Positions 22,178 to 56,871 of a stretch of DNA of 64,000 nt are shown here, one piece after another. Position 1 is the first letter of the stretch. Every line of letters begins with the position of its first letter. The DNA lies in NCBI RefSeq assembly GCF_025061645.1, contig NZ_JANYMP010000017.1:124001-188000 (forward strand). The letters are read 5' to 3'. The notes under the pieces were generated by a model, which searched no databases, was not told the DNA's origin, and saw nothing but the letters and a program-made list of their open reading frames with translations. The translations under genes and the position numbers were made by a program. The stretch comes from Umezawaea endophytica. Lineage in GTDB: Bacteria; Actinomycetota; Actinomycetes; Mycobacteriales; Pseudonocardiaceae.

Positions 22178-22290
22178 TACGTGCCTCCATGGGCGCCATA
22201 CGATTGCTTGTCTTGTACTCGGCCATACACCTCGCATCGTTACTCGATTTGGCGTATCCCAAGGATCTTTCACTCATCGTGCTCGGACCG
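22178..22290. other. 113-bp gap within the minus-strand locus
   Basis: This lies between the acyltransferase stop at 22291 and the DUF4082 gene start at 22177. It is more A/T rich than its surroundings and could hold a promoter for the 22177-16036 unit. No hairpin or clear promoter boxes were found. Confidence 0.3.
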
Positions 22291-22878: not shown

Positions 22879-23987
22879 CGGCCGACCGCCCGCGCCAGCA
22901 CGTCCACCACGCGCTCCTGCTGCGCGGGCGTGATCTCCGGGAACAGCGGCAGCGAGAGGATCTCGCCCGCGAGCAACTCCGACACGGGGAAGTCGCCCCT
23001 GGTGTGGCCGAGCGGGGCGAAGGAACCCGTGAGGTGCACGGGAACCGGGTAGTGCACGCCCGCGCCGATGCCCGCCGCGTTCAGCTCGGCCAGCACTCGG
23101 TCGCGGTCGGCGACCCGGACGACGTAGAGGTGCCACACGGGCTCGTTGCCCTCGGCCACCACGGGGGTGACGACACCGGGCAGCTCCTCCAACAGCTTGC
23201 CGTAGCGGAAAGCCGCCTGCCTGCGGGCGGAGTTCCCGTCCTCCAGCCTGCGGAGCTTGGCCGAGAGGACGACGGCCTGCACCGTGTCCAGCCTGCTGTT
23301 GAACCCGATCTCGGTGTGCACGTACTTGCTCGGCGACCCGTGCTCGCGCAGCAGGCGCACCCGCTCGGCCAGGCGCGCGTCCCCGGTGAGGACCGCGCCG
23401 GCGTCGCCGTAGGCGCCGAGGTTCTTGCCGGGGTAGAAGCTCGTGGCCGCGATGTGGCCGAGCGCTCCCGTGGTCACGCCGTTCCTGCGCGCGCCCTGGG
23501 ACTGCGCCGCGTCCTCGACGACGACCGCGCCCACGGACTCCGCGACGGGGTGGATCAGCTCGATCTGGGCGGCCTGGCCGTACAGGTGGACCGGGATGAT
23601 CGCCGCGGTCCTCTCGGACACCACGCCCGCGAGCGCGTCGACGTCGATGAGGCCGGTGTCGGCCACGCAGTCCACCAGCACCGGCACGGCACCGGCCCGC
23701 ACGACCGCCTCGGCGGTGGCGATGAAGGTGTTGGCGGGCAGGACGCACTCGTCGCCCGCGCCGACACCGGCCGCGCGCAGCGCGAACTCCAGGGCGTCCG
23801 TGCCGTTGCCGACGCCGACGCAGTGGTCGACGCCGACGTAGGACGCGAACTCCTGCTCGAAGGCGGCGACCTGCGGGCCGCCGATGAAGGCGGTCTTCGC
23901 CAACACCGCGGCCCAGCCCTCGGCGACCTCGTCGGCCACCGACGCGTGCTGCGCGGCGAGATCGACGAGCGGGATGGGGTTGTTCAC
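22875..23987 (-). CDS. DegT/DnrJ/EryC1/StrS aminotransferase (3-amino sugar type)
   Basis: PLP-dependent sugar aminotransferase, 370 residues. Visible features are LVDLAAQHASV, GNGTDALEFALRA, VLPANTFIATAEAV, VEDAAQSQGA, and the PLP-lysine segment TSFYPGKNLGAYGDAG, which resembles 3-aminotransferases such as WbpE, QdtB or DesV. It makes a 3-amino nucleotide sugar from the keto sugar; the partner acyltransferase immediately downstream is WbpD-like, which supports this. GTG at 23987 overlaps the upstream stop by 4 bp. The exact regiochemistry is inferred. Confidence 0.9.
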   Translation of the reverse strand: MNNPIPLVDLAAQHASVADEVAEGWAAVLAKTAFIGGPQVAAFEQEFASYVGVDHCVGVGNGTDALEFALRAAGVGAGDECVLPANTFIATAEAVVRAGAVPVLVDCVADTGLIDVDALAGVVSERTAAIIPVHLYGQAAQIELIHPVAESVGAVVVEDAAQSQGARRNGVTTGALGHIAATSFYPGKNLGAYGDAGAVLTGDARLAERVRLLREHGSPSKYVHTEIGFNSRLDTVQAVVLSAKLRRLEDGNSARRQAAFRYGKLLEELPGVVTPVVAEGNEPVWHLYVVRVADRDRVLAELNAAGIGAGVHYPVPVHLTGSFAPLGHTRGDFPVSELLAGEILSLPLFPEITPAQQERVVDVLARAVGR

Positions 23988-24649
23988 AAAGCCTCCAGAC
24001 GCGGAGTGGACACAGTGGACAGCGGGCGGGCGGGAACGCCCGCCCAGGTCTGCCCTGGGGGAACGTCGTTCAGGACCACGGCGCCCATGCCGATGACGGC
24101 TTCCGCGCCGACGCTCACGCCTTCGCGGATCAGGGCGCCGGAGCCGATGTAGGCGGCCTCGCCCACCCGCACGCCTCCGGCGAGGCTCGCCCGGCCCGCC
24201 ATCGTGACGAAGTCCGAGACCTCGTCGTCGTGGGTGAGCAGGACCTGGGGCATGGCCAGGACGTGGGAGCCGACGCGCAGCGGCGTGGTGATCACGACAC
24301 CGGCGAGCAGCACGGTGCCCGCGCCGAGTTCGACGCCCGGCGCCAGGGACGCGTGCGGGTGCACCACGGTGGCGTACCGCTCGGGCGGCAACCCGAGTCG
24401 GCGGACCAGGGAACGCCTGCCGTCCGGGCGGTGCGCGTTCGCGACGCAGACGACCACCTTCGTCGCGGGGTGGTCGTGCACGAGCGCGGTGCCGCCGAGC
24501 ACTCGGAGGCCGTCGACCTCGTCACCCGCCGCGGACGGCCGGTCGTCGAGGAGGCCCACCGGCTCCCAGCGGTCGCCGGACCGGATGGCCGCCAGCACCT
24601 CGCGGGCCAGCCCGCCCGCGCCGACCAGCAGCAAGGGCTCACGGGTCAC
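23984..24649 (-). CDS. NeuD/PglD-like sugar acyltransferase
   Basis: The 221-residue protein has an N-terminal Rossmann-like sugar-nucleotide-binding part (LLLVGAGGLAREVL, VVVCVANAHR). Left-handed beta-helix repeats follow, with a His in LTHDDEVSDFVTMA that corresponds to the catalytic base position of PglD-type enzymes, and GMGAVVLNDVPPGQTWAGVPARP at the end. Family members N-acylate 4-amino sugars on nucleotides. It sits directly after a PglE-like aminotransferase, which fits sequential amination and acylation. Start and stop overlap both neighbours by 4 bp. Confidence 0.88.
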   Translation of the reverse strand: MTREPLLLVGAGGLAREVLAAIRSGDRWEPVGLLDDRPSAAGDEVDGLRVLGGTALVHDHPATKVVVCVANAHRPDGRRSLVRRLGLPPERYATVVHPHASLAPGVELGAGTVLLAGVVITTPLRVGSHVLAMPQVLLTHDDEVSDFVTMAGRASLAGGVRVGEAAYIGSGALIREGVSVGAEAVIGMGAVVLNDVPPGQTWAGVPARPLSTVSTPRLEAL

Positions 24650-25785
24650 GACACCGCCACCCCCGAGAGGGCCGTGGTCAACGCCTCGGAAACCTGGTGC
24701 TGCTCGGCATCGGTCATGTCGTGGAACAGCGGGAGGATCAGGGTCCGACCGGTGAAGTCCTCGGTGGCGGGCAGTGGTGCGTGGGGGTGGCCCGCGTAGG
24801 CGGGTTCCAGGTGCGAGGCCATGATGCCGCGCCGCGCGGACACACCGCTGCTCGCGAGCGCCGCCAGCACCTCGTTGCGCGGGAGCGGGCAGTCGTCCGG
24901 CAGCCTGACCCAGAACGACTGGTAGTTCGTCGTGCCCCAGGCCGGGTCGCGCACCATCCGCAGCCCCGGCACGTCGGCCAGCATCTCGTGGTACTTCGCC
25001 GCCAGTTCACGGCGACGCGCGACGATGGAGTCCAACCTGGACAACTGCACGATCCCGACGGCGGCCTGGATGTCGGTCATCCGGTAGTTGAACGCGGTCT
25101 CCAGGTACTCCTCGACGACCGATCCCCCACCGCTGTGCCGGTCCGCGGCGCTCACGCTCATGCCGTGCTCGCGCAACCGGCGTCCCCGCACCGACCACTC
25201 GGGGTCGTCGGTGGTCAGCATCCCGCCCTCACCGGTGGTGAGCAGCTTGCGCGGGTGGAACGACCACGCGGCCAGCAGCGCGCCCGTCCCGACGGGAGCG
25301 CCGAGGTAGGTCGAGCCCGCGGCGCAGGCCGCGTCCTCGATCACCGGGATGCCGAGCGGGCCGCACAGCGCGCGGAGCGCCTTCACGTCCGCGGGCACAC
25401 CGGCCTGGTGCACGACGAGCACCGCGCGGGTGCGGTCGGTGATCACCGGCTCCACGGTCTCGGCCGTCAGGTTGCCGGTGGTGGCGTCCACGTCGGCGAA
25501 AACCGGTGTGGCGCCGCAGTAGCGGACCGCGTTGGCGGTGGCGATGAACGACAGCGACGGCACGACGACCTCGTCGCCGGGACCGATGTCGAGCAGGTGC
25601 ACGGCGAGGTGCAGCGCGGTGGTGCACGACGACACCGCCACGCCGTGGCGCGCGCCGACCCTGGCGCTGAAGGCCTCCTCGAAGCTCGCGACCCTCGGGC
25701 CCTGCGCGACCCAGCCGGACCGGACCGCCTCGGCGGCGGCCTGTGCCTCCTCCTCGCCGAGGACCGGGCGCATCACGGGGATCAT
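24646..25785 (-). CDS. DegT/DnrJ/EryC1/StrS aminotransferase (4-amino sugar type)
   Basis: The 379-residue PLP-dependent aminotransferase shows PVLGEEEAQAAAEAVRSGWVAQG, SSCTTALHLAVHLL, VVPSLSFIATANAV, VIEDAACAAG and the PLP-lysine segment WSFHPRKLLTTGEGG, similar to PglE, PseC or VioA enzymes acting on 4-keto sugars. ATG at 25785 overlaps the epimerase stop (ATGA); a GTG at 25806 would run 7 codons further and is less likely. Together with the downstream NeuD/PglD-like acyltransferase it should give an N-acylated 4-amino sugar. Confidence 0.9.
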   Translation of the reverse strand: MIPVMRPVLGEEEAQAAAEAVRSGWVAQGPRVASFEEAFSARVGARHGVAVSSCTTALHLAVHLLDIGPGDEVVVPSLSFIATANAVRYCGATPVFADVDATTGNLTAETVEPVITDRTRAVLVVHQAGVPADVKALRALCGPLGIPVIEDAACAAGSTYLGAPVGTGALLAAWSFHPRKLLTTGEGGMLTTDDPEWSVRGRRLREHGMSVSAADRHSGGGSVVEEYLETAFNYRMTDIQAAVGIVQLSRLDSIVARRRELAAKYHEMLADVPGLRMVRDPAWGTTNYQSFWVRLPDDCPLPRNEVLAALASSGVSARRGIMASHLEPAYAGHPHAPLPATEDFTGRTLILPLFHDMTDAEQHQVSEALTTALSGVAVS

Positions 25786-26759
25786 CGGCCGGTCTCCGCG
25801 CGCCACCAGGACACCAGCTCGCGCAGGCCGTCGTCCATGCCGATCTCCGGCTTCCAGCCGAGGTCCCGCGCGGCGGCGGAGATGTCCGCCAGCCGTCGGG
25901 TCACGCCGTTGACCTTGCGCTCGGGCCCGTGCTCCAGCGGCAGCTCGGAGTCCATGGCGCCCAGCAGCGCGAGCGCGAGACCCGCGAGGCTGGTCTCGTG
26001 CGAGCTGGCGATGTTGTAGACGGTGTCGGTGACGTCCGCCCGCGCCGCCAGGACGTTGGCGCGCGCGATGTCGTGCACGTGGACGAAGTCCATCGTCTGG
26101 GCGCCGTCACCGAAGATCAGCGGCGACTCGCCGTCGGAGATGCGCTCCATCCACCGGATGAGGACCTCGGTGTAGAGGCCGTGCGCGTCCATCCTCGGCC
26201 CGTACACGTTGAAGTACCGCAGCGCCACGTAGTCCAGGCCGTTCATGGCGTGGAAGCTGCGCAGCATCCCCTCGTTGAACGCCTTCGCGGCGCCGTAGAA
26301 GGTGTCGTTGTTGTACGGGTGGTGCCGCTCCGTGGTCGGGAACGTCTCGGCGAGGCCGTAGACGGACGCCGACGAGGAGGCGATGAGCTTCTTCACGCCC
26401 GCCGCCGCGGCGGCCTCGACGACGGTGAAGGTGCCGTCCACCAAGCACTCCAGCGCGAGCCGCGGTTCCTCGGCGCACTGGGTGATGCGGATGGCCGCGA
26501 GGTGGAACACGAGGTCGATGCCCTCGGTCAGCTCCCCGACCAGCTTCCGGTCGTTGATGTCGCCCTCGACGATCGTCACCCGGTCGTCCGCGGCGGCGAC
26601 GGCGTCGGCCAGGTTCTCCCTGCGGCCGCGCACGAAGTTGTCCAGCACGACCACTTCGGCCGCCCCGGCGGCGACGAGCTGGTCGACCACCGCGGAGCCG
26701 ATGGTGCCCGCTCCGCCGGTGACCAGCGCTCGCTGGCCGGCAATGGGCTGTGCGGTCAT
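25782..26759 (-). CDS. NAD-dependent epimerase/dehydratase (extended SDR)
   Basis: The 325-residue nucleotide-sugar SDR has the NAD-binding motif ALVTGGAGTIGSAV, then FHLAAIRITQCAEEP, the Ser of SSSASVYG, and the catalytic YGAAK (Tyr-x3-Lys). YFNVYGPRMD is typical of UDP-glucose or GlcNAc 4-epimerase and dehydratase relatives. It probably sets the C4 configuration or supplies the keto sugar for the two aminotransferases. ATG at 26759 overlaps the upstream stop by 4 bp. Epimerase and dehydratase cannot be distinguished from sequence alone here. Confidence 0.88.
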   Translation of the reverse strand: MTAQPIAGQRALVTGGAGTIGSAVVDQLVAAGAAEVVVLDNFVRGRRENLADAVAAADDRVTIVEGDINDRKLVGELTEGIDLVFHLAAIRITQCAEEPRLALECLVDGTFTVVEAAAAAGVKKLIASSSASVYGLAETFPTTERHHPYNNDTFYGAAKAFNEGMLRSFHAMNGLDYVALRYFNVYGPRMDAHGLYTEVLIRWMERISDGESPLIFGDGAQTMDFVHVHDIARANVLAARADVTDTVYNIASSHETSLAGLALALLGAMDSELPLEHGPERKVNGVTRRLADISAAARDLGWKPEIGMDDGLRELVSWWRAETGR

Positions 26760-37206: not shown

Positions 37207-37802
37207 GCGAGGAGTTCTGGGACGCCCACTACCGGGCCCGCGCGGGGGTGTGGTTGGGGCGCGCCAACGCGGTGCTGGTCGACGTGGTCGCGTCGCTGCC
37301 GCCGGGGACGGCGCTGGACCTCGGCTGCGCCGAGGGCGCCGACGCCGTCTGGCTGGCCGCTCGGGGCTGGCGGGTCACCGCCGCCGACGTCTCCCCCACC
37401 GCGCTGGCACGTGCCGCGGCACACGCGGTGGACGCGGGCGTCGAGGTCGACCTGCAACACCACGACCTGGCACGAACCTTCCCCGAGGGCACGTTCGACC
37501 TGGTGTCCGCGCAGTACCTCCAGTCACCGCTGGACTTCCCGCGCGCCGAGGTCCTGCGCAAGGCGGCGAACGCCGTGACGCCGGGCGGTCTCCTGCTGGT
37601 CGTGGAGCACGGCTCCGTCGCCCCGTGGTCGTGGAACCAGGACGCCGAGTTCCCGACGCCGGAGGAGTCGCTGGCCGAGATCGGCCTGGACCGGACGGCG
37701 TGGCGGGTCGAGCGACTCGGTGCGCCGCAACGGGAAGCGATCGGCCCGAATAGACAGACGGCGACGGTGGCGGACATCGTGATCGCGCTCAGGCGGGTCT
37801 GA
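37203..37802 (+). CDS. class I SAM-dependent methyltransferase
   Basis: The 199-residue protein contains ALDLGCAEGADAVWLAARGWRVTAADVSPTAL (motif I and post-I acid), DLVSAQYLQSP and TPGGLLLVVEHGS. A small-molecule or thiopurine-type methyltransferase is plausible (start EEFWDAHYRARAGVWLG resembles tellurite/TehB-like members). The start overlaps the flavoprotein stop (ATGA), which suggests a shared detoxification or redox role. Confidence 0.87.
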   Translation: MSEEFWDAHYRARAGVWLGRANAVLVDVVASLPPGTALDLGCAEGADAVWLAARGWRVTAADVSPTALARAAAHAVDAGVEVDLQHHDLARTFPEGTFDLVSAQYLQSPLDFPRAEVLRKAANAVTPGGLLLVVEHGSVAPWSWNQDAEFPTPEESLAEIGLDRTAWRVERLGAPQREAIGPNRQTATVADIVIALRRV

Positions 37803-37962
37803 CGGCGGTCGGCGGGTTCGTGGGTCCCGCTGGACCGAGCTGACGGCCCACCACCGCGTCGGCGAGCAAGTCCGCAGGCCCAGTCAGACAGGGCTGGTGG
37901 GGCATCGGCGAGCGCACCCGCATATCCAGCCCGGCCACCCGCGCGTCGGCGAGCGGATTTCG
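37803..37962. other. 160-bp convergent gap with short repeats
   Basis: This lies between the methyltransferase stop and the LysR-type stop. The 12-mer GCGTCGGCGAGC occurs twice (near 37857 and 37945). No clean terminator hairpin is evident, and no gene fits. Confidence 0.35.
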
Positions 37963-38868
37963 TCAGGCCGGGCCGACGGCTGACAGGGCGTTGGCGAGCA
38001 GGGTCGCGGGTTTTGTCAGTTTTCCCGGTAGCCAGGCCAGCAGGATGCGGCGCTGTTCGCTCGGACCGCCGCGCACCGTCACGACTCGCACGCCGGGCGG
38101 GACCACGGGCAGCAGGGACGGTGGCAGTGTGGTCAGGCCGCACCCGGCCGCCACCAGGTGCAGCTTGGCCAGCCAGTCGCGGGCGGTGTGGGCGATCTCC
38201 TGCCGCTCGTCCAGGCCCGGCCACACGCCCATCAGCTTGTCGTCGCCGGAGTGGCCCGCGATCCACCGCTGGCCGCGCAGGTCGGCGACGTCGACGGAGT
38301 CCTCCGCGGCCAGCGGGTGGGTCGCGGGGACGGCGAGGAGCAGGCCCCGTTCGGACAGGGTGCGCAGTTCCAGTGGTGGCGAGCCGGTGTCCGGCGGGCG
38401 GAACGGCGGCGCGGACGCGACCACGACCAGGTCGAGCGTGCCCGCCCGCAGCGCGCGGACCAGCACGGGGGTGCTGCCCTCGCGGCTGGTCACGGTGATG
38501 CCGGGGTGGGTGCGGCGCAGCGCGGCGACGGCCGCGGGCACCAGCGCCCCGCCCGCGCTGGCGAACCAGCCGAGCCGCACGGCCCCCGCGTCGGCGGGCA
38601 GGCCCGCGAGTTCCCGGCCCGCCGCGTCGATCTGCTCCAGCACGACCGCCGCCCGCCGCAGCAGGACGTGCCCGGCGGCGGTCAGCCGGACGCCGTCACG
38701 GCGGCGCTCCAGCAGTGGCCCACCCGCCGCGCGTTCGAGCGACGCGATCTGGCGGGACACGGCCGACTGCGTGTAGCCGAGCGAGGCGGCGGCCGACGTG
38801 AGCGTGCCCCGCTCGGCGACCTCCTGGAACACCCGCAGCGCGACCAGCGAGACGTCGGTGAAGTCCAT
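37963..38868 (-). CDS. LysR-family transcriptional regulator
   Basis: The 301-residue protein has an N-terminal winged HTH (LVALRVFQEVAERGTLTSAAASLGYTQSAVSRQIASLE) and a periplasmic-binding-like effector domain (VRLGWFASAGGALVPAAVAAL, LLLAVPATHPLA). It is divergent from the SDR gene starting at 38940, which it presumably regulates; a short dyad CCAAC-N4-GTTGG lies at 38893-38906. ATG at 38868 is used; GTG at 38877 adds three residues and is also possible. Confidence 0.9.
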   Translation of the reverse strand: MDFTDVSLVALRVFQEVAERGTLTSAAASLGYTQSAVSRQIASLERAAGGPLLERRRDGVRLTAAGHVLLRRAAVVLEQIDAAGRELAGLPADAGAVRLGWFASAGGALVPAAVAALRRTHPGITVTSREGSTPVLVRALRAGTLDLVVVASAPPFRPPDTGSPPLELRTLSERGLLLAVPATHPLAAEDSVDVADLRGQRWIAGHSGDDKLMGVWPGLDERQEIAHTARDWLAKLHLVAAGCGLTTLPPSLLPVVPPGVRVVTVRGGPSEQRRILLAWLPGKLTKPATLLANALSAVGPA

Positions 38869-38939
38869 GACGTCCACGCATACCAGACATGACCAACTCT
38901 CGTTGGACGCATGGGTTCGCCGCTCCTAGCGTGGATCCC

Positions 38940-39839
38940 ATGAGAACCGCACTGGTGACCGGCGCGAACCAGAACATCGGGTTCGCGCTCGTCGAAGAAC
39001 TCGCCGCCCGCTGGGAACCCGCCGACCTGGTCCTGCTCACCGGTCGAGATCCGGACCGGGTCGCGGACGCCGCGGCACGAGCCGCCCGCAACCCCGCCAC
39101 GCGCGGCCGGGTCGAGGGCCGAGTGCTGGACGTGACCGACTCCGAGGCCGTGGCGAAGCTCGCCGCGGAGTTCACCGACGGTATCGACGTGGTCGTGTCC
39201 AACGCGGTCACCCGGATCACGCCGGACCGGCACGCGGAGCAGACCGACGAGTTCATCGCCGTCGCCAACGGCGGCGCGCACGCCGTGCTGCGCTCCTTCG
39301 GCCCGGTCCTGCGCCCCGGTGGGCGGCTGGTCATCGTGGCCAGTTCGCTCGGCACGCTCGACCACCTGCCCGCCCCGCTGCACCACCTGTTCGACGAGGT
39401 GTCGCTGGACGAGGTGGAGGCGGCCGTCGAGTCGTGGCGGGCCGCCGTCCACGACGGCACCGCCGCCCGGCAGGGCTGGCCGGAGTGGGTCAACCTGCCG
39501 TCGAAGGTCGCGCAGGTCGCCGCCGTGCGCGCCGTCGCGACCGAACGCCGTGCCCGCGACCTGACCAACGGCACCCTGATCGCCGCGGTCTGCCCCGGCC
39601 TGGTCGACACCCCCACGTCCCGCCCCTGGTTCGACGACTTCAGCCACGCCCTCACCAGCGCCGAAGCCGCCCGGCGCGTGCTCGACTTCGTGCTGGCGGA
39701 TCCGGTCGACCCGGCGCTGTACGGCGAACTCGTCCGCTTCGGGCGCGCACTGCCCTGGAGGGGAAAGGGCTTGCGGACGCCCTCCACCGACCCCGGTCCG
39801 CATTCCTGCGGAGGACGGAATTCCCGCTCGCCCGGATGA
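38940..39839 (+). CDS. SDR-family protein lacking the catalytic tyrosine
   Basis: The 299-residue protein resembles carbonyl reductase-type SDRs. NAD(P) motif ALVTGANQNIGFALVEEL, VVVSNAVTRITPD, and the Ser region VIVASSLGTL are in place, but at the Tyr-x3-Lys site the sequence is WPEWVNLPSK, so Tyr is replaced by Asn while Lys remains. It may be an inactive paralogue, use another residue, or have a binding role. ATG at 38940 matches the fold start; the frame is open to 38889. The regulator LysR is divergent. The last 20 residues are Pro/Gly/Ser rich. Confidence 0.8.
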   Translation: MRTALVTGANQNIGFALVEELAARWEPADLVLLTGRDPDRVADAAARAARNPATRGRVEGRVLDVTDSEAVAKLAAEFTDGIDVVVSNAVTRITPDRHAEQTDEFIAVANGGAHAVLRSFGPVLRPGGRLVIVASSLGTLDHLPAPLHHLFDEVSLDEVEAAVESWRAAVHDGTAARQGWPEWVNLPSKVAQVAAVRAVATERRARDLTNGTLIAAVCPGLVDTPTSRPWFDDFSHALTSAEAARRVLDFVLADPVDPALYGELVRFGRALPWRGKGLRTPSTDPGPHSCGGRNSRSPG

Positions 39840-40042
39840 GCGAAGATCCGCGAAAATTCGGAGTAGCGAAGCGGATCCGGTGTCACCATCGGCGCACGGT
39901 CGGGAGTCGTCCACCTGGTCTGGAGGCCGCGTTGAACCCAGCGAGAACGCCGAACCCACCGCACGCGTCCGGCACACGCGACAACCGGTTCGACGGCACC
40001 CTGTTCGCGGTGCTGTTCCAGGCGAACGTGGTCGAGGGCGAC

Positions 40043-40648
40043 GTGCCGGTGACGCCTTCCCCGGCGCTGGACCAAATCCTCACGTTCGTGACCGACCTGG
40101 ACGCCTGCCTGGAACACATCGGCGACCTGGAAGCCGTGCTGCGGTTCATCCCCGACGGGCTCTTCCCGATCATCGAGGTCATGGCGGACACGTCCAGCAC
40201 GCGCTTCATCCTGGAACACGACCTGTCCGGCCCGCCCCTGTTCCAGGAGTCACTCGCGTTCCTGCTGAAGGTCGCCTGGCAACGCGGCTACCTCATGCAG
40301 AAGTTCCACACGCTGAACCGCATCCCCCACCCATCCGGCCCGGTCGACCCGGTGGCCGTGATGGACAAGATCATCGGCCTGGGCGGCTCCGACCTGTCGA
40401 CGGAGATCGAGGTGGTCTTGCAGAAGGCCGTGTCGCTCTGCACGGACGAGAAACAGCTCACGCGCTGCTTGAACGCCATCCAAGGGCTGGCTCCGATCGT
40501 TCAGCCGGTCATGCGGGAATGGGGAGCGGTCACGCGCTCCGCGTACGGGTGGGGACTGCTCGTGGCGAAGACCGAACACGCCCTGCGCCAAGACGCACAC
40601 GGGGCACCTGCGGAACACGACCGCGCAGGGGGAACTCCGGTGTCGTAG
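40043..40648 (+). CDS. hypothetical protein
   Basis: The roughly 201-residue product is not recognised. It is mostly helical in appearance, with hydrophobic and acidic helices: ALDQILTFVTDLDACLEHIGDLEAV, FIPDGLFPIIEVMAD, ESLAFLLKVAWQRGYLMQKFHTLNR, LCTDEKQLTRCLNAIQGLAPIV. Three Cys are present. GTG at 40043 is picked because GAGGG lies 4 nt upstream; GTG at 40049 or 40028 could serve. No signal peptide. It stands alone between the SDR gene and a repeat-rich stretch. Confidence 0.55.
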   Translation: MPVTPSPALDQILTFVTDLDACLEHIGDLEAVLRFIPDGLFPIIEVMADTSSTRFILEHDLSGPPLFQESLAFLLKVAWQRGYLMQKFHTLNRIPHPSGPVDPVAVMDKIIGLGGSDLSTEIEVVLQKAVSLCTDEKQLTRCLNAIQGLAPIVQPVMREWGAVTRSAYGWGLLVAKTEHALRQDAHGAPAEHDRAGGTPVS

Positions 40649-41193
40649 GACCTCCTTGTGGGGGCACGCTTGGGCGGTGGGGTGGCTGGGACGCGACCGG
40701 GGTCGGGGCGGGAAGGATGGAGCGGCCGGGGTCGGGGCGGGGTCGCCGGGACGCGATCGGGGTCGGGGCAGGACGGATAGAGCGGCCGAAGTCTTTTAGC
40801 GGTCAGGCTGTCGGAACAGCCGGAAGCACCAGGACAACCGGGGTCGCCTGGGTCCTCAGGACAGCCAGAGTCGCCAAAGGAACCCGAGTCGCCGAGAGCG
40901 CTGATCCCAATCCGCGCGGGTGCAGGACTCATCGTGGCCGGACACCGGGTCCGCCACAGCGAGGCCGAAGCCGACCGCCACCATGACCGCCGCGGTGCTG
41001 TGCCGGTTGCCGGGACCCTGCTACCGCCCGGCAACGGCCCCGTGCCGGACCATCGCCAACCCGGCGTCGAACCAACGCCAACCTCGCCGGTCCAACGTCA
41101 GCCCGGCGCCGGCCGGGTGGGGTCAGGTGGGCACCTGGCACCTCCAAAGTCGGACGCCGGGCCGCGTTGGTGACGTGGTGGTGTGGTTGGGGG
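40649..41193. other. 545-bp region without a supportable gene, G-rich repeats
   Basis: Open frames are proline/arginine-rich low complexity without family features. The first part contains a 60-bp tandem repeat (40681-40795); the rest is GC-rich unique sequence. No terminator or promoter could be assigned with confidence. Confidence 0.45.
40681..40795 (+). repeat. 60-bp tandem duplication, about two copies
   Basis: Sequence at 40681-40740 recurs at 40741-40795 with about 80% identity over the shared part (for instance ACGCGACCGGGGTCGGGGC against ACGCGATCGGGGTCGGGGC). It is non-coding and G-rich on this strand. Confidence 0.8.
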
Positions 41194-43014
41194 TTATGGC
41201 TGGATGGTCACTGGGGTGCCGTTGGCGGTTAGGCGCCAGTCGACCTTGGCGAAGACTGCTGGGTCGATTTCGCCTGTTTCCTTCACCCAGTCGATCATGA
41301 GTTGGCGGATTTCCTGCTGCTGGTTGAGCAGCACGGGTGCGGTGGAGATGTGGGGGAAGCCGCCGCCGCCCGACTGGCGGTAGTTGTTGACGGCCACGGC
41401 GAATTCCTGGGTCGGGGTGATTGCCGTGCCCGCGTAGGCGAGGGTGGTGATGCGGTTGCCCACGGGCTTGGTGATGTCGATGTCGTAGGTGAGCGGGGCG
41501 TCCAGGCCCGCGGCGATGTCGTAGTTGTAGTCGGGGGTGCCGTTCGGGGCCGTCGAGGTCGGGGCGTTGGTGATCGAGTCGGCCGGGAACGGGCCCGCTG
41601 AGGTGACCTGCTTGAAGTACCTGGCGCAGAACTCCAGGTAGTCCTTGAGCTGGGCGCCGGTCAGGCGGACCGCCAGCAGGGTGTTGTCGAAGATGTACAG
41701 GCCCGCCACGTCGCGCACCGAGACGTCGCCCGCCGGGATGGCCGCGGCGCGGTTGAACGGGGCCGCCAGCGCCAAAATCGGCAGGGTGTTGGCGGGCAGT
41801 GCCTTCTTGACCTCGACGGCCTGGACGTAGTTGATGAAGTCGAGCGCCGCGACGTCCTCGTACCGCGCGGTGGCGGCGGACATCGCCTGCTTGTTCGTGC
41901 CCACCTTCGAGTTCACGTAGGTGACGACCTTGGCGTGGTCCTCGGTCAGCAGGCGGACGATCTTCGGGTCCTCGGGGACGGTGTTGGAGTTCAGCACCTG
42001 CGAGCGGGACGCCTTCAGCGTCCAGCCGCCGCGGGGGGCCCAGGACAGGTCGAAGTCCATCAGGCTCAGGCGCTTGCCCCAGAACAGCGGCTCGGTGATG
42101 AGGACCTGCTTGCCGGTGCTCTTGTTCGCCACCAGGCGCTGCGGGATCTCGACGTGGGCGTGCCCGACGAGGATCGCGTCGATGCCCGGCACCTGCTCGG
42201 CCACCAGGGTCGCCGCGTTCTCCGGGTACGGCAGGGCGTCGCCGTACGACGAGGACGTGTCCGCGCCCGAGTGAGCCGACACGATCACCAGGTCGACACC
42301 GGCGCGGCGCATCCTCGGCACCCACACCGCCGCCTGCTCCACCAGGCCGGGGAACGTCATCTTCCCCTCGACGTTCGCCTTGTCCCAGATCGCGATGCCA
42401 GGGTTGGTCAGCCCGAGGATGCCCACCCGCAGCGGGGCCGTGCCGGTGCGCCACACCGTCTTCACCACGTACGGCTTGAACGCGGGCTGCCCGGTGCGCG
42501 AGTCGATCGCGTTCGCGCCGAGCAGCGGGAACCGCAACTGCCGCTCGAACGTCCGCAGCAGCGGGATGCCGTAGTTGAACTCGTGGTTGCCCAGCGCCGC
42601 GGCGTCGTAGCCGATCGCGTTCATCGCGGCGGCCATCGGGTGCACGCGGCGGCGGGTGATCGGCTCGACCTTGGCGTAGTAGTACGCCAGCGGGGTGCCC
42701 TGGATCGTGTCGCCCGCGTCCAGCAGCAGCGTGCGGTGCTCGCCGCGCTCCTGGCGGACCGCCGTCACCAGCGAAGACACCTTCGCCAGGCCGATGTCGT
42801 TGTGGCCGGAGTCGTCGAACTCCTTGTTCGCGAAGTAGTCCCAGTTGAACACGTTGCCGTGCAGGTCGGTGGTGCCCATGACGGTCAGGGTGAACGCCCT
42901 GTCCACGCCACGCGTCTCCGCTTGGGCGGCGGCCGGGCGGAAGCCCGCGGCGGCGAGGACGCCCGCGGCGGTGCCCGCGAGCACGGCGCGACGCCGAACT
43001 GGATTCTCGGTCAT
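41194..43014 (-). CDS. secreted bifunctional metallophosphatase/5'-nucleotidase
   Basis: The 606-residue protein starts with a twin-arginine-like signal (PVRRRAVLAGTAAGVLAAAGF). It carries the calcineurin-type motifs: VMGTTDLHGN, DAGDTIQGTPLAYYY, GNHEFNYG, VSAHSGAD and VGHAHVEIPQ. The C-terminal 5'-nucleotidase domain (about 340-600) has NTLLAVRLTGAQLKDYLE and AVAVNNYRQSGGGGFP. Such CpdB/UshA-like enzymes hydrolyse nucleotides or cyclic nucleotides outside the cell to supply phosphate and nucleosides. No partner genes nearby. Confidence 0.92.
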   Translation of the reverse strand: MTENPVRRRAVLAGTAAGVLAAAGFRPAAAQAETRGVDRAFTLTVMGTTDLHGNVFNWDYFANKEFDDSGHNDIGLAKVSSLVTAVRQERGEHRTLLLDAGDTIQGTPLAYYYAKVEPITRRRVHPMAAAMNAIGYDAAALGNHEFNYGIPLLRTFERQLRFPLLGANAIDSRTGQPAFKPYVVKTVWRTGTAPLRVGILGLTNPGIAIWDKANVEGKMTFPGLVEQAAVWVPRMRRAGVDLVIVSAHSGADTSSSYGDALPYPENAATLVAEQVPGIDAILVGHAHVEIPQRLVANKSTGKQVLITEPLFWGKRLSLMDFDLSWAPRGGWTLKASRSQVLNSNTVPEDPKIVRLLTEDHAKVVTYVNSKVGTNKQAMSAATARYEDVAALDFINYVQAVEVKKALPANTLPILALAAPFNRAAAIPAGDVSVRDVAGLYIFDNTLLAVRLTGAQLKDYLEFCARYFKQVTSAGPFPADSITNAPTSTAPNGTPDYNYDIAAGLDAPLTYDIDITKPVGNRITTLAYAGTAITPTQEFAVAVNNYRQSGGGGFPHISTAPVLLNQQQEIRQLMIDWVKETGEIDPAVFAKVDWRLTANGTPVTIQP

Positions 43015-51120: not shown

Positions 51121-52412
51121 CACACGAAGCACCCAGCCCCGCGCCCGAGGTTGGGCTCATGACACTCACGACGCTGCGGCCCGGTGCGACTCCCATCGCG
51201 ACGAACACCAAGACCCCCGTCCTGGACGTGGTGGTACCGGTGTTCAACGAGGAGGCGGACCTCGGTCCCTGCGTGCGCAGGCTGCACGCCGAACTGGTCC
51301 GGACCTCGTCGTACCCCTTCCGGATCACCATCGCGAACAACGCCAGCACGGACGGGACCGCCGCGGTCGCCGAGGCGCTCGTGGACGAGCTGCCCGAGGT
51401 CGCCGTGGTGCACCTGGAGCAGAAGGGCCGCGGTCGGGCGCTGCACCAGGTCTGGCTCGCCTCCGACGCGCCGGTGCTGGCGTACATGGACGTCGACCTG
51501 TCGACCGACCTGGCCGCGCTGCCGCCGCTGATCGCGCCGCTCATCTCCGGGCACTCCGACATCGCGATCGGCAGCAGACTGGCCCGCGGCGCCCGTGTCG
51601 TGCGCGGCCCGAAGCGGGAGTTCATCTCGCGCTGCTACAATCTGCTGCTGCGCGGCACGCTGGCCACCCGGTTCTCCGACGCGCAGTGCGGGTTCAAGGC
51701 GATCCGCGCCGACGTCGCCCAGCGGCTGCTGCCGCACGTCGTGGACACCGGCTGGTTCTTCGACACCGAACTGCTGGTGCTGGGCGAACGCGCGGGCCTG
51801 CGGATCCACGAGGTCCCGGTGGACTGGGTGGACGACCCGGACAGCCGGGTCGACATCGTGTCCACGGCGATGGCGGACCTCAAGGGCGTCGCCCGGCTCG
51901 GGCGGGCGCTCGCGACCGGCAAGCTGCCGATCACCGAACTCCGCCAGCAGCTCGGCCGGGAACCGCTGGAGAGCCGAACCCCCGGCGTGCCAACGGGTCT
52001 GCTGCGCCAGCTCGTCCGGTTCGCGGCGATCGGCGTGACCAGCACGCTCGCCTACCTGCTGCTGTTCCTGATGCTGCGCGGCGGCCTCGGCGCCCAGGGC
52101 GCGAACCTGGTCGCGCTGCTGCTCACCGCCGTCGCGAACACCGCCGCGAACCGCCGCTTCACCTTCGGCGTGCGCGGTCGGCACGGCGCGGGCAGGCACC
52201 AGTTCGAGGGGCTGATCGTGTTCGGCCTCGGGCTGGCGCTGACCAGCGGGTCGCTCGCGCTGCTGCACAGCTCCACCGATCCCGGCCAGGTCGCCGAGGT
52301 CGCCGCCGTCGTCGGCGCCAACCTGATCGCCACCGTGTTGCGCTTCCTGCTGCTGCGCAACTGGGTGTTCCGCTCCCGTCCCACCCCCACTCCTCTGGAG
52401 AGCAACTCATGA
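51117..52412 (+). CDS. GT2 (dolichol-phosphate-mannose-synthase-like) fused to GtrA-like membrane domain
   Basis: The 431-residue protein has a GT2 domain at about 35-250 (LDVVVPVFNEEADLG, ITIANNASTDGTAA, LAYMDVDLSTDL, SDAQCGFKAIRAD, WFFDTELLVLGERAGL) and a GtrA-like four-helix membrane domain at about 295-425 (LVRFAAIGVTSTLAYLLLFL, NTAANRRFTFG, RFLLLRNWVFR). It likely makes a polyprenyl-phosphate sugar and moves it outward, supplying the two GT39 enzymes that flank it. ATG at 51117 overlaps the preceding stop; an internal ATG at 51159 is an alternative. Confidence 0.9.
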   Translation: MTHEAPSPAPEVGLMTLTTLRPGATPIATNTKTPVLDVVVPVFNEEADLGPCVRRLHAELVRTSSYPFRITIANNASTDGTAAVAEALVDELPEVAVVHLEQKGRGRALHQVWLASDAPVLAYMDVDLSTDLAALPPLIAPLISGHSDIAIGSRLARGARVVRGPKREFISRCYNLLLRGTLATRFSDAQCGFKAIRADVAQRLLPHVVDTGWFFDTELLVLGERAGLRIHEVPVDWVDDPDSRVDIVSTAMADLKGVARLGRALATGKLPITELRQQLGREPLESRTPGVPTGLLRQLVRFAAIGVTSTLAYLLLFLMLRGGLGAQGANLVALLLTAVANTAANRRFTFGVRGRHGAGRHQFEGLIVFGLGLALTSGSLALLHSSTDPGQVAEVAAVVGANLIATVLRFLLLRNWVFRSRPTPTPLESNS

Positions 52413-54244
52413 CCACGACGTTGGCGCCGAGCGCGACTACCGTCGCCCCTGCCGTTCCGGAACCCCGGCGCGATCCCCGGTGGGTCCGGCCCGCGTTCCT
52501 CGCGCTCCTCGCGGCTTCAGCGGTGCTGTTCCTGTGGAACCTGTCGGCGTCGGGCTTCGGCAACGGCTTCTACGCCGCCGCGACCCAGTCCGCCACGCAG
52601 AGCTGGAAGGCGTGGCTGTTCGGGTCGCTCGACTCCGGCAACGTGCTGACGGTGGACAAGCCGCCCGCGTTCCTGTGGGTCAGCGGGCTGTTCGCCCGGA
52701 TCTTCGGGTTCTCTAGCTGGACGGTGCTGGCGCCGCAGGCGCTGGAGGGCGTCGCGGCCGTGGGGTTGCTGTACGCCACGGTGAAGCGCACGTCGGGGCC
52801 GGTGGCCGGGCTGTTCGCCGGTGCGGCGCTGGCGTTGACGCCGGTCGCCACGCTGATGTTCCGGTTCAACCTGCCGGACGCGCTGCTGGTGCTGCTGATG
52901 GTCGCCGCCGCGTACTGCACGGTCCGCTCGCTGGAGAAGGCGAGTCCTCGGTGGATCGCGCTCGCGGGTGTGGCGATCGGGTTCGCGTTCCTGACGAAGA
53001 TGGGTCAGGCGCTGCTCGTGCTGCCCGCGCTGGGGCTCGTGTACCTCATCGCGGCTCCGACGGGGATCGGCAAGCGGCTGCTGCACCTGCTGGGCGCGGC
53101 CGTCGCGATGGTCGTGTCCGCGGGCTGGTTCATCGTGCTGGTCGAGCTGTGGCCCGCCGACTCGCGGCCGTACATCGGTGGTTCCACCAACGACAGCCTG
53201 TGGGAGTTGGCGGTCGGCTACAACGGTCTCGGTCGGCTGTTCGGCCAGGGCGGCGGTGGGGGCGGTGTCATGACCGGTGGCGGCGGGAACACCGGGTTCG
53301 GCGGCGCGTCGGGGATCGGCCGGATGTTCGGTGCGAGCTTCGGCAACGAGGTGTCATGGCTGCTGCCCGCCGCGCTGATCGGCCTGGTCGCCGGGTTGTG
53401 GTTCACCCGCCGCGCGCCGCGCACCAGCCGGACGCGGGCCGCGCTGGTCCTGTGGGGCGGCTGGATGGTCGTCACGGCGCTGGTGTTCAGCTTCATGAGC
53501 GGCATCATCCACCCGTACTACGCCGTCGCGCTGGCGCCGGGGATCGTCGGCACGGTCGCGATCTCCGGCCGTGAGCTGTGGCGCGGCCGGGCCCACGCGC
53601 CCGCGCGGATCGCGTTGGCGGCGATGGTCGCGGCGACCGGGTTCTGGAGCTTCGCGCTGCTGAACCGGGTGCCGGAGTGGCTGCCGTTCGTGCGGTGGAC
53701 CATCGCGGTGGTGACGGTCGTCGTGGCCACGGTGATCGTCCTGGGTGTCACGCAGGCCAAGAAGGTCGTGCTGACCGGGGTGCTGGTGGCCGGTCTGCTC
53801 GGCACCGTCTCGTACTCGGTCGCCACGGCGGCGTCCTCGCACAACGGGTCAATCCCGGTGTCGGGCCCGGCGGGCTACGTCTCCGGCGGCATGGGCGGGG
53901 GCATGGGCGGTCCAGGCGAGGAGTCGACCGGGAGCGCGTTGACCGAGCTGCTGAAGAGCACGGACACGCTGTGGGCCGCGGCGACCGTCAGCTCGCAGAG
54001 CGCCGCGAGCCTGGAACTGGCCACCGGCAAGGCCGTGATCGGCATCGGCGGCTGGAGCGGATCCGACCCGGCGCCGACGCTCGCCGAGTTCCAGCAGTAC
54101 GTCGCCGACGGGAAGATCGGGTACTACGTGCCCGGCGGCCGCATGGGTGGCGGCGGCGGGAGCGGTGAGATCGCCACTTGGGTGGAGGCCAACTTCACCG
54201 CGGTGGAGGTCGACGGGACGACCGTCTACGACCTGAGCGAGTAG
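52409..54244 (+). CDS. second GT39-family membrane glycosyltransferase, paralogue of the 49288 gene
   Basis: The 611-residue protein is closely similar to the protein at 49288 throughout: WNLSASGFGNGFYAAATQSATQ, VDKPPAFLWVSGLFARIFG, LTPVATLMFRFNLPDALLVLLM, SFMSGIIHPYYAVALAPGI, SDPAPTLAEFQQYVADGKIGYYV. It has about 12 TM helices and a C-terminal soluble domain after a Gly/Met-rich stretch. It begins inside the end of the GT2-GtrA gene (4-bp overlap) and is the last gene of the operon, followed by a hairpin. The two paralogues may glycosylate different acceptors. Confidence 0.87.
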   Translation: MTTTLAPSATTVAPAVPEPRRDPRWVRPAFLALLAASAVLFLWNLSASGFGNGFYAAATQSATQSWKAWLFGSLDSGNVLTVDKPPAFLWVSGLFARIFGFSSWTVLAPQALEGVAAVGLLYATVKRTSGPVAGLFAGAALALTPVATLMFRFNLPDALLVLLMVAAAYCTVRSLEKASPRWIALAGVAIGFAFLTKMGQALLVLPALGLVYLIAAPTGIGKRLLHLLGAAVAMVVSAGWFIVLVELWPADSRPYIGGSTNDSLWELAVGYNGLGRLFGQGGGGGGVMTGGGGNTGFGGASGIGRMFGASFGNEVSWLLPAALIGLVAGLWFTRRAPRTSRTRAALVLWGGWMVVTALVFSFMSGIIHPYYAVALAPGIVGTVAISGRELWRGRAHAPARIALAAMVAATGFWSFALLNRVPEWLPFVRWTIAVVTVVVATVIVLGVTQAKKVVLTGVLVAGLLGTVSYSVATAASSHNGSIPVSGPAGYVSGGMGGGMGGPGEESTGSALTELLKSTDTLWAAATVSSQSAASLELATGKAVIGIGGWSGSDPAPTLAEFQQYVADGKIGYYVPGGRMGGGGGSGEIATWVEANFTAVEVDGTTVYDLSE

Positions 54245-54254
54245 CTCACCGGAG

Positions 54255-54290
54255 GAACGCGCGCGCGGCCACCGGGCCACGCGCGCGTTC
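54255..54290. terminator. long hairpin after the GT39 operon
   Basis: GAACGCGCGCG (54255-54265) pairs with CGCGCGCGTTC (54280-54290), with an inner GGCC/GGCC pairing and a 4-nt loop. The right arm lies in the 50-bp repeat shared with 55837-55886. It would end the GT39 operon and, before the insertion described below, probably also the convergent lacI-type gene. Confidence 0.7.
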
Positions 54291-54328
54291 TCACGTCCGG
54301 GGTCGGGTGGTGGAGGCGCGTTCGACCA
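54279..54328. repeat. left copy of 50-bp perfect direct repeat flanking a low-G+C islet
   Basis: This is identical to 55837-55886. The copy contains the last 37 nt of the lacI-type coding sequence including its stop, plus adjoining terminator sequence. Together the copies bound about 1.5 kb of distinct composition. Confidence 0.9.
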
Positions 54329-54338
54329 CCCGACCGTG

Positions 54339-55706
54339 TTAGGCGAACAACGCCGCGATCTTGCCAGCCGCATCGCCGAGCTGGGCGACATCGGGCAGAG
54401 ACACGACCAGACCTTGCCAGAACGATTTGAGGCGGGCCTTTCGAGGCTCAGCCAGCTCTAATTCTTCCGTGAAAGCGTTCAAGTTCTCCACGGCTTCTTC
54501 ATTTCCTGAACGTTCGACCAAATCGGCCACATCGCGCAAAGCTTTGCGTACGTCATCACCTCTGCTATCAATCGAATTAAGAGCATTAGACAGCGAAGAT
54601 CGGTTGACGATAACAGCTCCGGTACCGATATTCTCGAATCGATCACCCATGACAACCTCCATGAAATTGTTCATCTGCACGATCAGTGGCGGCGAATTTT
54701 TGCGCTCATCGTAGCGAAGCCCTTCAGAAAGATCCTCGACATCTCGCCAGTCGATACGACCATTGAAGACCCTGCCCAGCGAAAAAGCCGCCCCTTCAAA
54801 GTGACCCGCCTGCTCGTCAAAGTCGGTGACTACTCGGCCATCATGAAGGTCCTCGACATATCTCTCCAGCCATTCGACACGGGTACCCAAAGTACCCCTG
54901 GAGCCCGCAACAAACTCAATATAAGCTGTAAAAAATTTAGGGTATCCATCATCTATCGACTTGCGAAATACCACCGCCCCGCTGGCAACCGGCAAACCGC
55001 CGATAATTTCCCTCGGAGTACGAGCCGGCAATATCTCCTCGACCAGGAGGTAGACCCTCGGAACTCCGACCGAAGTATCATACAGAGACATCATCGATTT
55101 CGGAAGAAACTTCAGCCTACCGATCAAGGTGCAGGGAAGCACGCCATAATCAGAAATATAGTTGATGTAGCGCTGATAAAGATCCATAGACACCCCGACC
55201 GGCACACCTTCATGTGCCGCCAGAGTGGAAGATGCCGACATGAACCACAGTCGACCCTGATCCGTCTCCTTGTCAGTCAGCCGAACACAACCCAATCCCC
55301 CGTATAACATTTTCGCTTTGCCATGCAGATCGTAAACACGACCATCTACCGGCAGATCCCGAAGATGCTCACCCTTCCGCACAGGACTCACGTGGAAGAG
55401 GTATCTTTGCGCCGCGACACGGGATCTTCTCGCCGATTCGGTATGAAACAGCCCCGGCGACCTGGGAAACCATTCGAAAAGATAGAATTCCTCAAGCGTG
55501 ACCATGCTCCCGGATCGCAAACGCTCCGATCCGACGTCTTCCCAAAATTCCTCGTTCGCACTGAAACTCTTGTCGCGACCGCGAGCAGACTCGACCGGCG
55601 GCAGGATCAAGCTGCTTAACTCCAGTTGATCCTCAATCGCGGCTATTGCATCAATACGACTTGTATTCAGCCACAATTGCGATGATTCAACACCTTCCCT
55701 ACGCAT
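54339..55706 (-). CDS. unrecognised 455-residue protein in a low-G+C islet
   Basis: The protein is not recognised. It is acidic, has no signal peptide and no TM helix. Its N-terminal two-thirds (about 1-300) mixes strand-like segments, such as GRLKFLPKSMMSLYDTSVGV and VYLLVEEILPARTP, and then RVEWLERYVEDLHDGRVVTDFDEQ. Its C-terminal 110 residues start with GDRFENIGTGAVIVNRSS and continue as amphipathic helices (VRKALRDVADLVERSGNEEAVENL, KSFWQGLVVSLPDVAQLG). This two-part layout recalls modular actinobacterial conflict proteins, but that is recollection only. GGGAGG lies 6 nt before the ATG. G+C in sampled 60-nt lines was 38-52%, far below its neighbours. Confidence 0.75.
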   Translation of the reverse strand: MRREGVESSQLWLNTSRIDAIAAIEDQLELSSLILPPVESARGRDKSFSANEEFWEDVGSERLRSGSMVTLEEFYLFEWFPRSPGLFHTESARRSRVAAQRYLFHVSPVRKGEHLRDLPVDGRVYDLHGKAKMLYGGLGCVRLTDKETDQGRLWFMSASSTLAAHEGVPVGVSMDLYQRYINYISDYGVLPCTLIGRLKFLPKSMMSLYDTSVGVPRVYLLVEEILPARTPREIIGGLPVASGAVVFRKSIDDGYPKFFTAYIEFVAGSRGTLGTRVEWLERYVEDLHDGRVVTDFDEQAGHFEGAAFSLGRVFNGRIDWRDVEDLSEGLRYDERKNSPPLIVQMNNFMEVVMGDRFENIGTGAVIVNRSSLSNALNSIDSRGDDVRKALRDVADLVERSGNEEAVENLNAFTEELELAEPRKARLKSFWQGLVVSLPDVAQLGDAAGKIAALFA

Positions 55707-55801
55707 AATCCGCCTCCCGGAAGGGCTCGCAACACGAGATCATCACCTCAACACTACAAGGTCGCCGACCGCACGAACCTTCCTAAACCCCCACCGGAGA
55801 T

Positions 55802-55820
55802 GTGGCCATCTTTTGGCCAC
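55802..55820. other. hairpin-forming inverted repeat at the right edge of the islet
   Basis: GTGGCCA (55802-55808) and TGGCCAC (55814-55820) form a 7-bp perfect stem with a 5-nt loop between the islet gene and the right repeat copy. It may be a terminator for the lacI-type gene or an end structure of the inserted segment. Confidence 0.45.
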
Positions 55821-55836
55821 GACTTGTCGAAGAGGA

Positions 55837-55886
55837 ACGCGCGCGTTCTCACGTCCGGGGTCGGGTGGTGGAGGCGCGTTCGACCA
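55837..55886. repeat. right copy of 50-bp perfect direct repeat
   Basis: Identical to 54279-54328, it lies across the 3' end of the intact lacI-type gene (stop at 55849). An extended 14-base match (GAGGAACGCGCGCG) begins 5 bp before it and also occurs before the left copy at 54252-54265, which suggests that an ancestral longer repeat lost a hairpin loop in this copy. Confidence 0.9.
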
Positions 55887-56871
55887 GGTCGACGCCTATG
55901 GTGACCGGTTTGCGGGGCTGTTTGCCGCCCTCGATGGAGCTGATCAGCATCCGCACGGCCGTCGCTGCCTTCTCGCCGATGTCCTGGGCGATGGTCGTCA
56001 GCTTGGGCGTGACGTACGCGCACAGGTCCAGGTTGTCGAAGCCGATCACCGACAGGTCGTCCGGCACGGTCGCGCCGCTGTCCGCGACCCCTTCCATGAT
56101 GCCGATCGCGAGGATGTCCGCGGTCGCGAAGACGGCGGTCGCGGCCGGGTGCGCCGCGAGCAGCCGCCGTCCGACCTCCAGGCCTTCGGCGTGGGTGGTG
56201 TTGACCGTCTCGATGAGGTCGTCCGCCCAGGTCAGGCCCGCGTCGGTGAACGCCTGGAGGAAACCCTCGAACCGCTGGTGCACCACGCCGACGTCGGAGA
56301 ACGCCGGGCCCGCGAACAGGATCCGCCGGTGGCCGAGCCCGATCAGGTGTTCGGCGGCGAGCCGGGCGCCCGCGAAGTCGTCGGCGCGGACGCCCGTGGT
56401 GATCCGGTTCTTGGAGTAGCTGTCGACGGCCAGCACGCGGACCGCGCCGATCGTCGCCTTGGTGAGCCGGTCCAGCTCCTCGTCCAGGAAACCCAGCAGC
56501 ACGGCGCCGTCCAGGCTCCACGACTGGAGCGCCTCGGTCACCTCGTCCGGGTGCGCGATGCCGCGCAGCAGCAGGTGGTAGCCGCGCTTGCGCAGTTCGC
56601 GCTCGATCTGGCCCGCGATGGCGACGTTGTGCGGGCTGATCATCATGCTGTCCTCGTCGGCCGCCGGCACCAGCAGCCCGATCAGCCGCGACGACTTGGC
56701 CGCAAGGCTCCGCGCGGACGCGCTGGGCACGTAGCCGCGCTCGGCCACGATGCGCCGCACGCGCTCGATCGTCTCCGGTGAGACGCGGGCCTTGTTGCCG
56801 TTGACGACGTTCGACACGGTCATCATGCTCACGCCCGCCTCGTCGGCGATGTCCCGCAGGGTGACCCGCAC
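55849..56871 (-). CDS. LacI-family transcriptional regulator
   Basis: The 340-residue protein has an N-terminal LacI HTH (VTLRDIADEAGVSMMTVSNVVNGNKARVSPETIERVRRIVAERGYVPS) and a periplasmic-binding-like effector domain (LIGLLVPA, LIGLGHRRILFAGPA, DDLSVIGFDNLDLCAYVTPKLTTIAQDI). GTG at 56871 has GAGGAG 8 nt upstream. It is divergent from the GH13/ABC operon and probably represses it through the palindrome at 56974-56995. Its 3' end is duplicated beyond the islet at 54279. Confidence 0.92.
   Translation of the reverse strand: MRVTLRDIADEAGVSMMTVSNVVNGNKARVSPETIERVRRIVAERGYVPSASARSLAAKSSRLIGLLVPAADEDSMMISPHNVAIAGQIERELRKRGYHLLLRGIAHPDEVTEALQSWSLDGAVLLGFLDEELDRLTKATIGAVRVLAVDSYSKNRITTGVRADDFAGARLAAEHLIGLGHRRILFAGPAFSDVGVVHQRFEGFLQAFTDAGLTWADDLIETVNTTHAEGLEVGRRLLAAHPAATAVFATADILAIGIMEGVADSGATVPDDLSVIGFDNLDLCAYVTPKLTTIAQDIGEKAATAVRMLISSIEGGKQPRKPVTIGVDLVERASTTRPRT

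Follow-up and report, generated by a model that had tools for sequence, protein, structure and literature searches.

A one-gene, low-G+C islet between identical 50-bp repeats at a lacI gene end in Umezawaea endophytica: possibly an integrase-less mobilizable element

Introduction

Decayed integrative elements that keep attL and attR and have lost their genes for integration and transfer are described as CIMEs (PMC5704250). Integrons, in turn, are described as stores of phage defence genes, and one account of a Vibrio integron gives anti-phage activity for at least 16 of 179 cassettes (PMC12409362). The locus studied here shares features with both. It is a single-gene islet in a 64-kb stretch (the window) of a 225-kb contig of Umezawaea endophytica; since mobile-element searches usually start from integrases, one-gene islets without a recombinase are easily missed. 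We suggest, with a probability of roughly 45%, that the islet resembles an integrase-less, cis-mobilizable element with att-like ends, inserted at the end of a lacI-type gene.

Results

The islet and its repeats

The islet lies between two convergent genes, and its main features are as follows.

52409..54244, plus strand: convergent membrane mannosyltransferase-type gene (PMT_2 and YkcB_C domains)
54279..54328: left 50-bp copy, the displaced lacI 3' end plus 12 bp (0/50 mismatches relative to the right copy)
54329..55836: inserted DNA, 1508 bp, 53.4% G+C (missing from both other genus genomes; deviating composition)
54339..55706, minus strand: islet gene, 455 aa, intact open reading frame
55837..55886: right 50-bp copy, the native lacI 3' end (by sequence identity)
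55849..56871, minus strand: lacI-type regulator, 340 aa, intact (LacI and Peripla_BP_3 domains)

A sequence-only reading of this DNA had proposed a 50-bp direct repeat here, and we found that 54279-54328 and 55837-55886 agree at 50 of 50 bases with an offset of 1558 bp. Each copy comprises the final lacI codons, the stop codon and 12 bp downstream; the LacI and Peripla_BP_3 domains bear out the claim that the right copy is the genuine 3' end of a lacI gene. This pair is the longest direct repeat in the window (runners-up, 24-25 nt, in a search for exact repeats of at least 24 nt) and the longest in the whole contig among pairs spaced 0.3-12 kb apart.

The DNA between the copies has 53.4% G+C vs. 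71.1% in the remaining window. The low-G+C interior described from the letters is thus real, although it amounts to 50-55% per 300-bp window and not 38-52%; likewise, the islet is framed by the repeat as described, but the islet proper is 54329-55836 rather than 54252-55886. Beyond the islet, the lowest 600-bp G+C within the window is 59.5%, and across the whole contig only the islet falls below 57% in 600-bp windows (next lowest, 58.2%). The islet holds a single gene, as had been stated; this gene has 455 codons, and its GC3 is 56% vs. 96% for lacI.

Empty site in a sister species

We compared three genomes of the genus, one per species: the source genome, that of a sister species (G001) and a third (G002). 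Both flanks are found in all three, and the islet gene only in the source. In the sister species, the two neighbours are adjacent with one repeat copy and the full terminator hairpin between them, and the two BLAST flanks overlap by 49 bases; its single copy differs from the left copy at 3/50 bases. The third genome is also without the islet gene, and its intergenic stretch is longer and diverged, with 15 of the 50 repeat bases different. Allowing up to three mismatches, the repeat core occurs twice in the source genome (at both islet ends) and once in each of the others. At E <= 1e-90, lacI orthologues were found in 2 of 60 family genomes drawn, namely the source and the third genus genome. 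Hence, with an empty site in the sister species and the gene missing from the third, the islet was most likely gained recently in the source lineage, as judged from these alignments. The comparison with relatives that had been suggested therefore gave the expected empty site with one repeat copy, and no other cargo was seen between the same repeats among the three genus genomes.

Two further stretches of the window (21919-25790 and 37798-41234) do not align to either of the other genomes, and lengths differ there. In the source genome, neither is flanked by direct repeats of at least 20 bp.

The gene is rare: with the source genome counted, it is present in 2/200 relatives and 3/394 genomes of the class, and a profile search found it in 1/396 genomes of the phylum, the source itself (these draws of 200, 394 and 396 genomes overlap). 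It is improbable, then, that this is an old resident gene precisely lost from both other species by recombination between the repeats. The 50-bp repeats could permit precise loss and the gene is intact; however, two losses would be required, and the foreign composition, the identical repeats and the rarity of the gene all argue against it. An assembly or contamination artefact deserves hardly any credence: the genome is a draft of 65 contigs with a contamination estimate of 4.78%, but native sequence continues on either side of the islet within a 225-kb contig, and a chimeric join would not have duplicated 50 bases of native DNA.

Junction structure

The junctions hold the following additional features.

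54252..54328: possible full-length 77-bp original repeat, hairpin intact (equal to 55832-55886 once 22 bp are removed)
54255..54290: terminator-like hairpin, 16-bp arms, 4-nt loop, common to the two convergent genes in the empty site
54301..54335: left-junction dyad, 14-bp arms (13/14 paired), 7-bp spacer; its last 7 bp (54329-54335) are islet DNA
55802..55820: perfect inverted repeat GTGGCCA-N5-TGGCCAC upstream of the islet gene, seen in the sequence
55832..55886: right copy of the longer repeat (55 bp), 22-bp hairpin loop missing, by sequence comparison

The sequence GAGGAACGCGCGCG is common to 54252 and 55832, and taking 22 bp of hairpin loop out of the 77 bp of 54252-54328 gives exactly the 55 bp of 55832-55886. 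The loop loss from a longer ancestral repeat that had been supposed fits this precisely. The 22 bp missing on the right are flanked by two 9-bp direct repeats, ACGCGCGCG. The left copy runs on from the terminator hairpin of the neighbouring gene (called GT39 in the sequence-only reading), and this hairpin is retained only on the left side of the islet; a similar one is present in the sister species.

At its left junction, the islet opens with seven bases exactly reverse-complementary to positions 54301-54307 of the repeat, and these lengthen a native 7-bp dyad. The extended dyad sits at the gene-side edge of the repeat, whose end is 7 bp beyond the dyad spacer, and it is matched by 1/5000 randomly drawn islet 30-mers and 3/5000 such 30-mers from the remaining window. 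If a circle formed, its junction would place the dyad 3 nt past the islet gene stop codon.

For RNA of the gene strand, the dyad and hairpin on the left side jointly fold strongly (z -6.3), and the right side has only a small stem and the separate GTGGCCA repeat (z -1.9). Hence, because the right side keeps only this small stem, the islet gene is downstream of lacI on the same strand without the main terminator between them, and transcriptional read-through from lacI into the islet gene may be possible given this layout.

These junctions could also have come from break repair with capture of foreign DNA, a competing reading that we regard as tentative and somewhat less likely than att-type integration. 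A staggered break of 50-77 nt, with the terminator hairpin on one side and the second dyad on the other, would take up a foreign fragment, and filling of the overhangs would duplicate the target. The hairpin loop would be skipped in one copy, and the other end would fold back, copy seven bases and be joined. Such repair predicts 0/50 mismatches, including at the three bases that differ in the sister species. In its favour, too, the duplicated stretch stops at the outermost bases of one hairpin and of the weaker dyad. The reading also fits a right copy equal to the left minus exactly the 22 bp between two 9-bp direct repeats, and foldback synthesis accounts for the seven templated islet bases. 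On the other hand, the captured fragment would have to stop 3 nt beyond a stop codon and contain a single complete gene, which this reading explains less well. Enzyme-free duplications of this length are not known to us from bacteria, and none appeared in the literature searched, judged by titles among the papers listed.

Recombinases and other elements in the genome

Neither tyrosine (PF00589) nor serine (PF00239) recombinase matches occur on the islet's contig, in line with the earlier statement that no integrase is present. Elsewhere in the genome, 15 PF00589 matches exceed the cut-off, and there are 3 PF00239 matches.

Two other elements were seen in a survey for similar islets that covered 1,785,002 of 11,023,148 bases (~16%), with slightly different settings for the islet's own contig. 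The first (contig C4, 372042-386502; L063-L064) is 14.4 kb long and framed by 69-bp repeats that differ at 2/69 bases, one of them next to a Phage_integrase gene; in this element, the integrase alone was scanned against families. The second (contig C2, 333756-337707; L129) is a 3.9-kb low-G+C element at a tRNA-Gly gene between 36-bp repeats. It holds a gene with a PIN_8 domain (475 aa, 47% G+C), a Schlafen AlbA_2-like fragment just below the Pfam cut-off and a short tyrosine-integrase frame (314 aa) whose N-terminal part is seemingly in another frame. Apart from these two and the lacI islet, the repeat pairs listed by the survey were near-tandem or had no low-G+C DNA inside. The lacI islet could be the last stage of the decay seen in elements of these two types.

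Integration at an att-type site would proceed as follows. A foreign one-gene segment would have been inserted recently between the two convergent genes, with a tyrosine-type recombinase, supplied from elsewhere or later lost, joining a site on the element with the last lacI bases. Integration would restore lacI and displace a copy of 50-77 bp to the far side, and the crossover would fall in the 7-bp spacer at 54315-54321. What we observed directly is an empty site, a repeat, DNA of foreign composition between intact neighbours, and a contig free of PF00589 and PF00239 matches; that a recombinase acted, where it crossed over and in which order losses came are inferences.

Gene-end integrases usually leave an identity segment that covers the 3' end of a gene and has a dyad at its gene-side edge, and at this locus the repeat spans the lacI 3' end with the dyad placed in this way. 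Also in favour of att-type integration are the single repeat copy at the empty site in the sister species, the gene's absence from the third genome, the completion of the dyad by islet bases (an arrangement matched by 1/5000 islet and 3/5000 window 30-mers), the integrase-bearing elements between repeats on C4 and C2, and the 15 PF00589 and 3 PF00239 matches of the same genome. As for cargo, a very probable integron cassette is among the gene's relatives, and others are beside NACHT genes.

Several points stand against att-type integration. A foreign element should bring a slightly different site, so 0/50 mismatches, when three of those bases differ in the sister species, count against it; the repeats of the C4 element differ at two positions. 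The islet and its surroundings are free of known recombinase types, loss of the hairpin loop in one copy is not predicted, and the dyad could instead be the terminator of the gene or a foldback product. Viral contigs (exact 20-mer), phages and plasmids yielded no full element carrying this site: the repeat or its core was absent from the viral contigs and phages, and plasmids gave seven weak 27-30-base matches at E 0.2, which we do not count as evidence. Of the interpretation first offered from the letters, recent insertion at a gene end is supported, and a passively moving or decayed site-specific element is plausible. The agreement of the two copies at three bases that differ in the sister species also fits local duplication during break repair.

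We also considered an undescribed class of one-gene, defence-type cassettes in which the dyad right after the gene would serve as both terminator and recombination site; we think this unlikely. If true, gene ends with hairpins would receive such cassettes by mobilization in trans, with the target copied between two hairpins. They would be like integron cassettes without an integron, in a gene family able to ride real integrons too.

Separately, we rejected an insertion sequence or DDE transposon: the gene matches no Pfam transposase, and no inverted repeat pairs the islet ends.

The islet protein and its relatives

The islet protein has an N-terminal domain (~46-330), then a MGDRFENIGTGAVIVNRS-type motif and a C-terminal domain (~353-453) with predicted helices. 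It matched no family in Pfam, NCBIfam or PHROGs, and no relative of solved structure was found. AlphaFold gave no reliable whole fold for the protein alone (pLDDT 31.8) or with six sequences (pLDDT 51.6), and Foldseek with the model found nothing in the PDB at E <= 0.001. Among PADLOC profiles, the candidate PDC-M14B was matched weakly (E 0.0029; islet residues 343-439 on profile positions 154-247 of 275), and P0006 and a Motilibacter protein match it as well. Assignment of the islet to PDC-M14 was rejected: the match is to the tail only and the islet, with its one gene, has no gene partners.

Of the three other genomes in the counts of relatives and class genomes above, two (G161 and G468) match in the tail only and one (G274) in both domains. 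A three-row profile scan of genome contigs gave five loci from several phyla: a Zymogenus (Deltaproteobacteria) MAG, Chitinophaga (Bacteroidota), Motilibacter (Actinomycetota; the G274 contig), Nostoc (Cyanobacteriota) and an unclassified MAG (L024). No relative was found in viral contigs by a three-row profile, or in phages with the Zymogenus relative as query. Among plasmids, the window protein hit a single record; with the L024 relative as query there were two, the second being a tail-only match in Nitrosomonas. When six relatives were scanned for flanking repeats, long repeats were found in L024 only, with the scan limited by contig ends in L024 and in L022 (359 bp upstream).

The L024 relative sits between 122-nt repeats that are 90% alike, the second being cut by the contig end. 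It starts at GTTAGCAGG and ends at CCTGCTAAC, both at repeat edges. The complete repeat folds into paired outer boxes, an internal loop and single bulges (z -2.1, equalled by 6/200 shuffles), and this fold resembles those of attC sites. Judged by its sequence, the L024 relative is thus very probably an integron cassette, and the 4889-bp contig (L024:1-4889, from an unclassified bacterial MAG) is a probable cassette array with two families of ~120-nt intergenic repeats. Against this, two further 9-mer pairs occur in the contig, presumably by chance, GTTAGCA deviates from GTTRRRY, the second repeat is incomplete, and we noticed no integron integrase in any frame of this 4.9-kb contig. Rfam at the gathering threshold gave nothing in L024, L016 or L017.

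In an integron cassette, the R'' box after the gene is complementary to the cassette's first bases (GTTRRRY). RYYYAAC is a box motif of attC sites, and we estimate that ~1 in 32 TAA stops fit it by chance. The islet gene ends in GCCTAAC, which fits this motif, and its L024 relative is very probably a cassette; however, read by eye, neither islet junction has a GTTRRRY partner, which largely refutes insertion of an integron cassette at a secondary site, and cassette insertion makes no 50-bp target copy. This origin is therefore very improbable.

The relative in Nostoc calcicola (L026) has NINTNGGNYNETILGNYIEA at its C-terminal end, and the adjoining NACHT protein begins NINTGGGNYNERIEGDYIQG. 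On a Nostoc plasmid, the relative adjoins two NACHT proteins, one of which begins likewise, its N-terminus resembling the relative's C-terminus. Motilibacter has separate, adjacent genes for the N-terminal and tail domains, each with a GD-x-x-x-N...NRS motif; the window has both domains in one protein. In this analysis, the Nostoc and Motilibacter facts would fit an effector triggered via self-assembling motifs, as described for bacterial NLR effectors in PMC8086366.

The same contigs hold other features. L026:1-9942 encodes several proteins with a NINTGGGNYNExIxGDYIxG-like motif and NACHT-type proteins, and a tyrosine recombinase gene is located 530 bp after the relative. The separate-domain gene pair of Motilibacter is at L019:2-2421, and the frames beside it look like a putative IS3-type transposase pair.

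From the PADLOC match (E 0.0029) and the neighbours of distant relatives, our best guess is that the islet cargo may act as an effector in anti-phage defence or cell suicide, in a pathway of the nucleotide-binding (NACHT/NLR) type, a role read from distant relatives only. Against this defence role, the source genome yielded no NACHT partner that carries the motif. A search of that genome for a second copy of the C-terminal domain or a motif partner gave nothing convincing; the best match (E 0.048, contig C28) looks like chance, and we rejected it as a partner.

Discussion

The islet links a gene family that is unknown to Pfam with a probable integron cassette and with NACHT-type loci, and the clean empty site in the sister species makes its movement directly testable.

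We compared the islet with three described systems. Effectors of NLR-associated amyloid signalling (BASS) are described in PMC8086366. The resemblance lies in the Nostoc relatives (in L026 and on the plasmid), where glycine/asparagine-rich motifs at the C-terminus of the relative and at the N-terminus of an adjoining NACHT protein are alike. The islet protein, in contrast, has a different motif and no NACHT neighbour. As a BASS-type NLR effector, the islet protein was rejected: its neighbours are PMT_2 and LacI proteins, and a shared motif was seen for the Nostoc relatives only.

With an integron cassette, the islet shares its layout of one gene with a hairpin-forming stretch directly after the stop codon, and the gene's L024 relative very probably is one. 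Unlike the islet, L024 has the box pair GTTAGCAGG and CCTGCTAAC at its repeat edges. The islet was rejected as a cassette since it has no R'/R'' box pair and no array, and its target is copied over 50 bp.

The CIMEs differ from the islet in three ways: the islet is only 1.5 kb with one gene, no related integrase-bearing element is known for it, and its repeats are perfectly identical, including at bases that differ in the sister species. Like a CIME, the islet is bounded by direct repeats, here candidate recombination sites, at the 3' end of a gene that one of the copies completes, and it is without integrase or transfer genes, its one gene being free of any family match.
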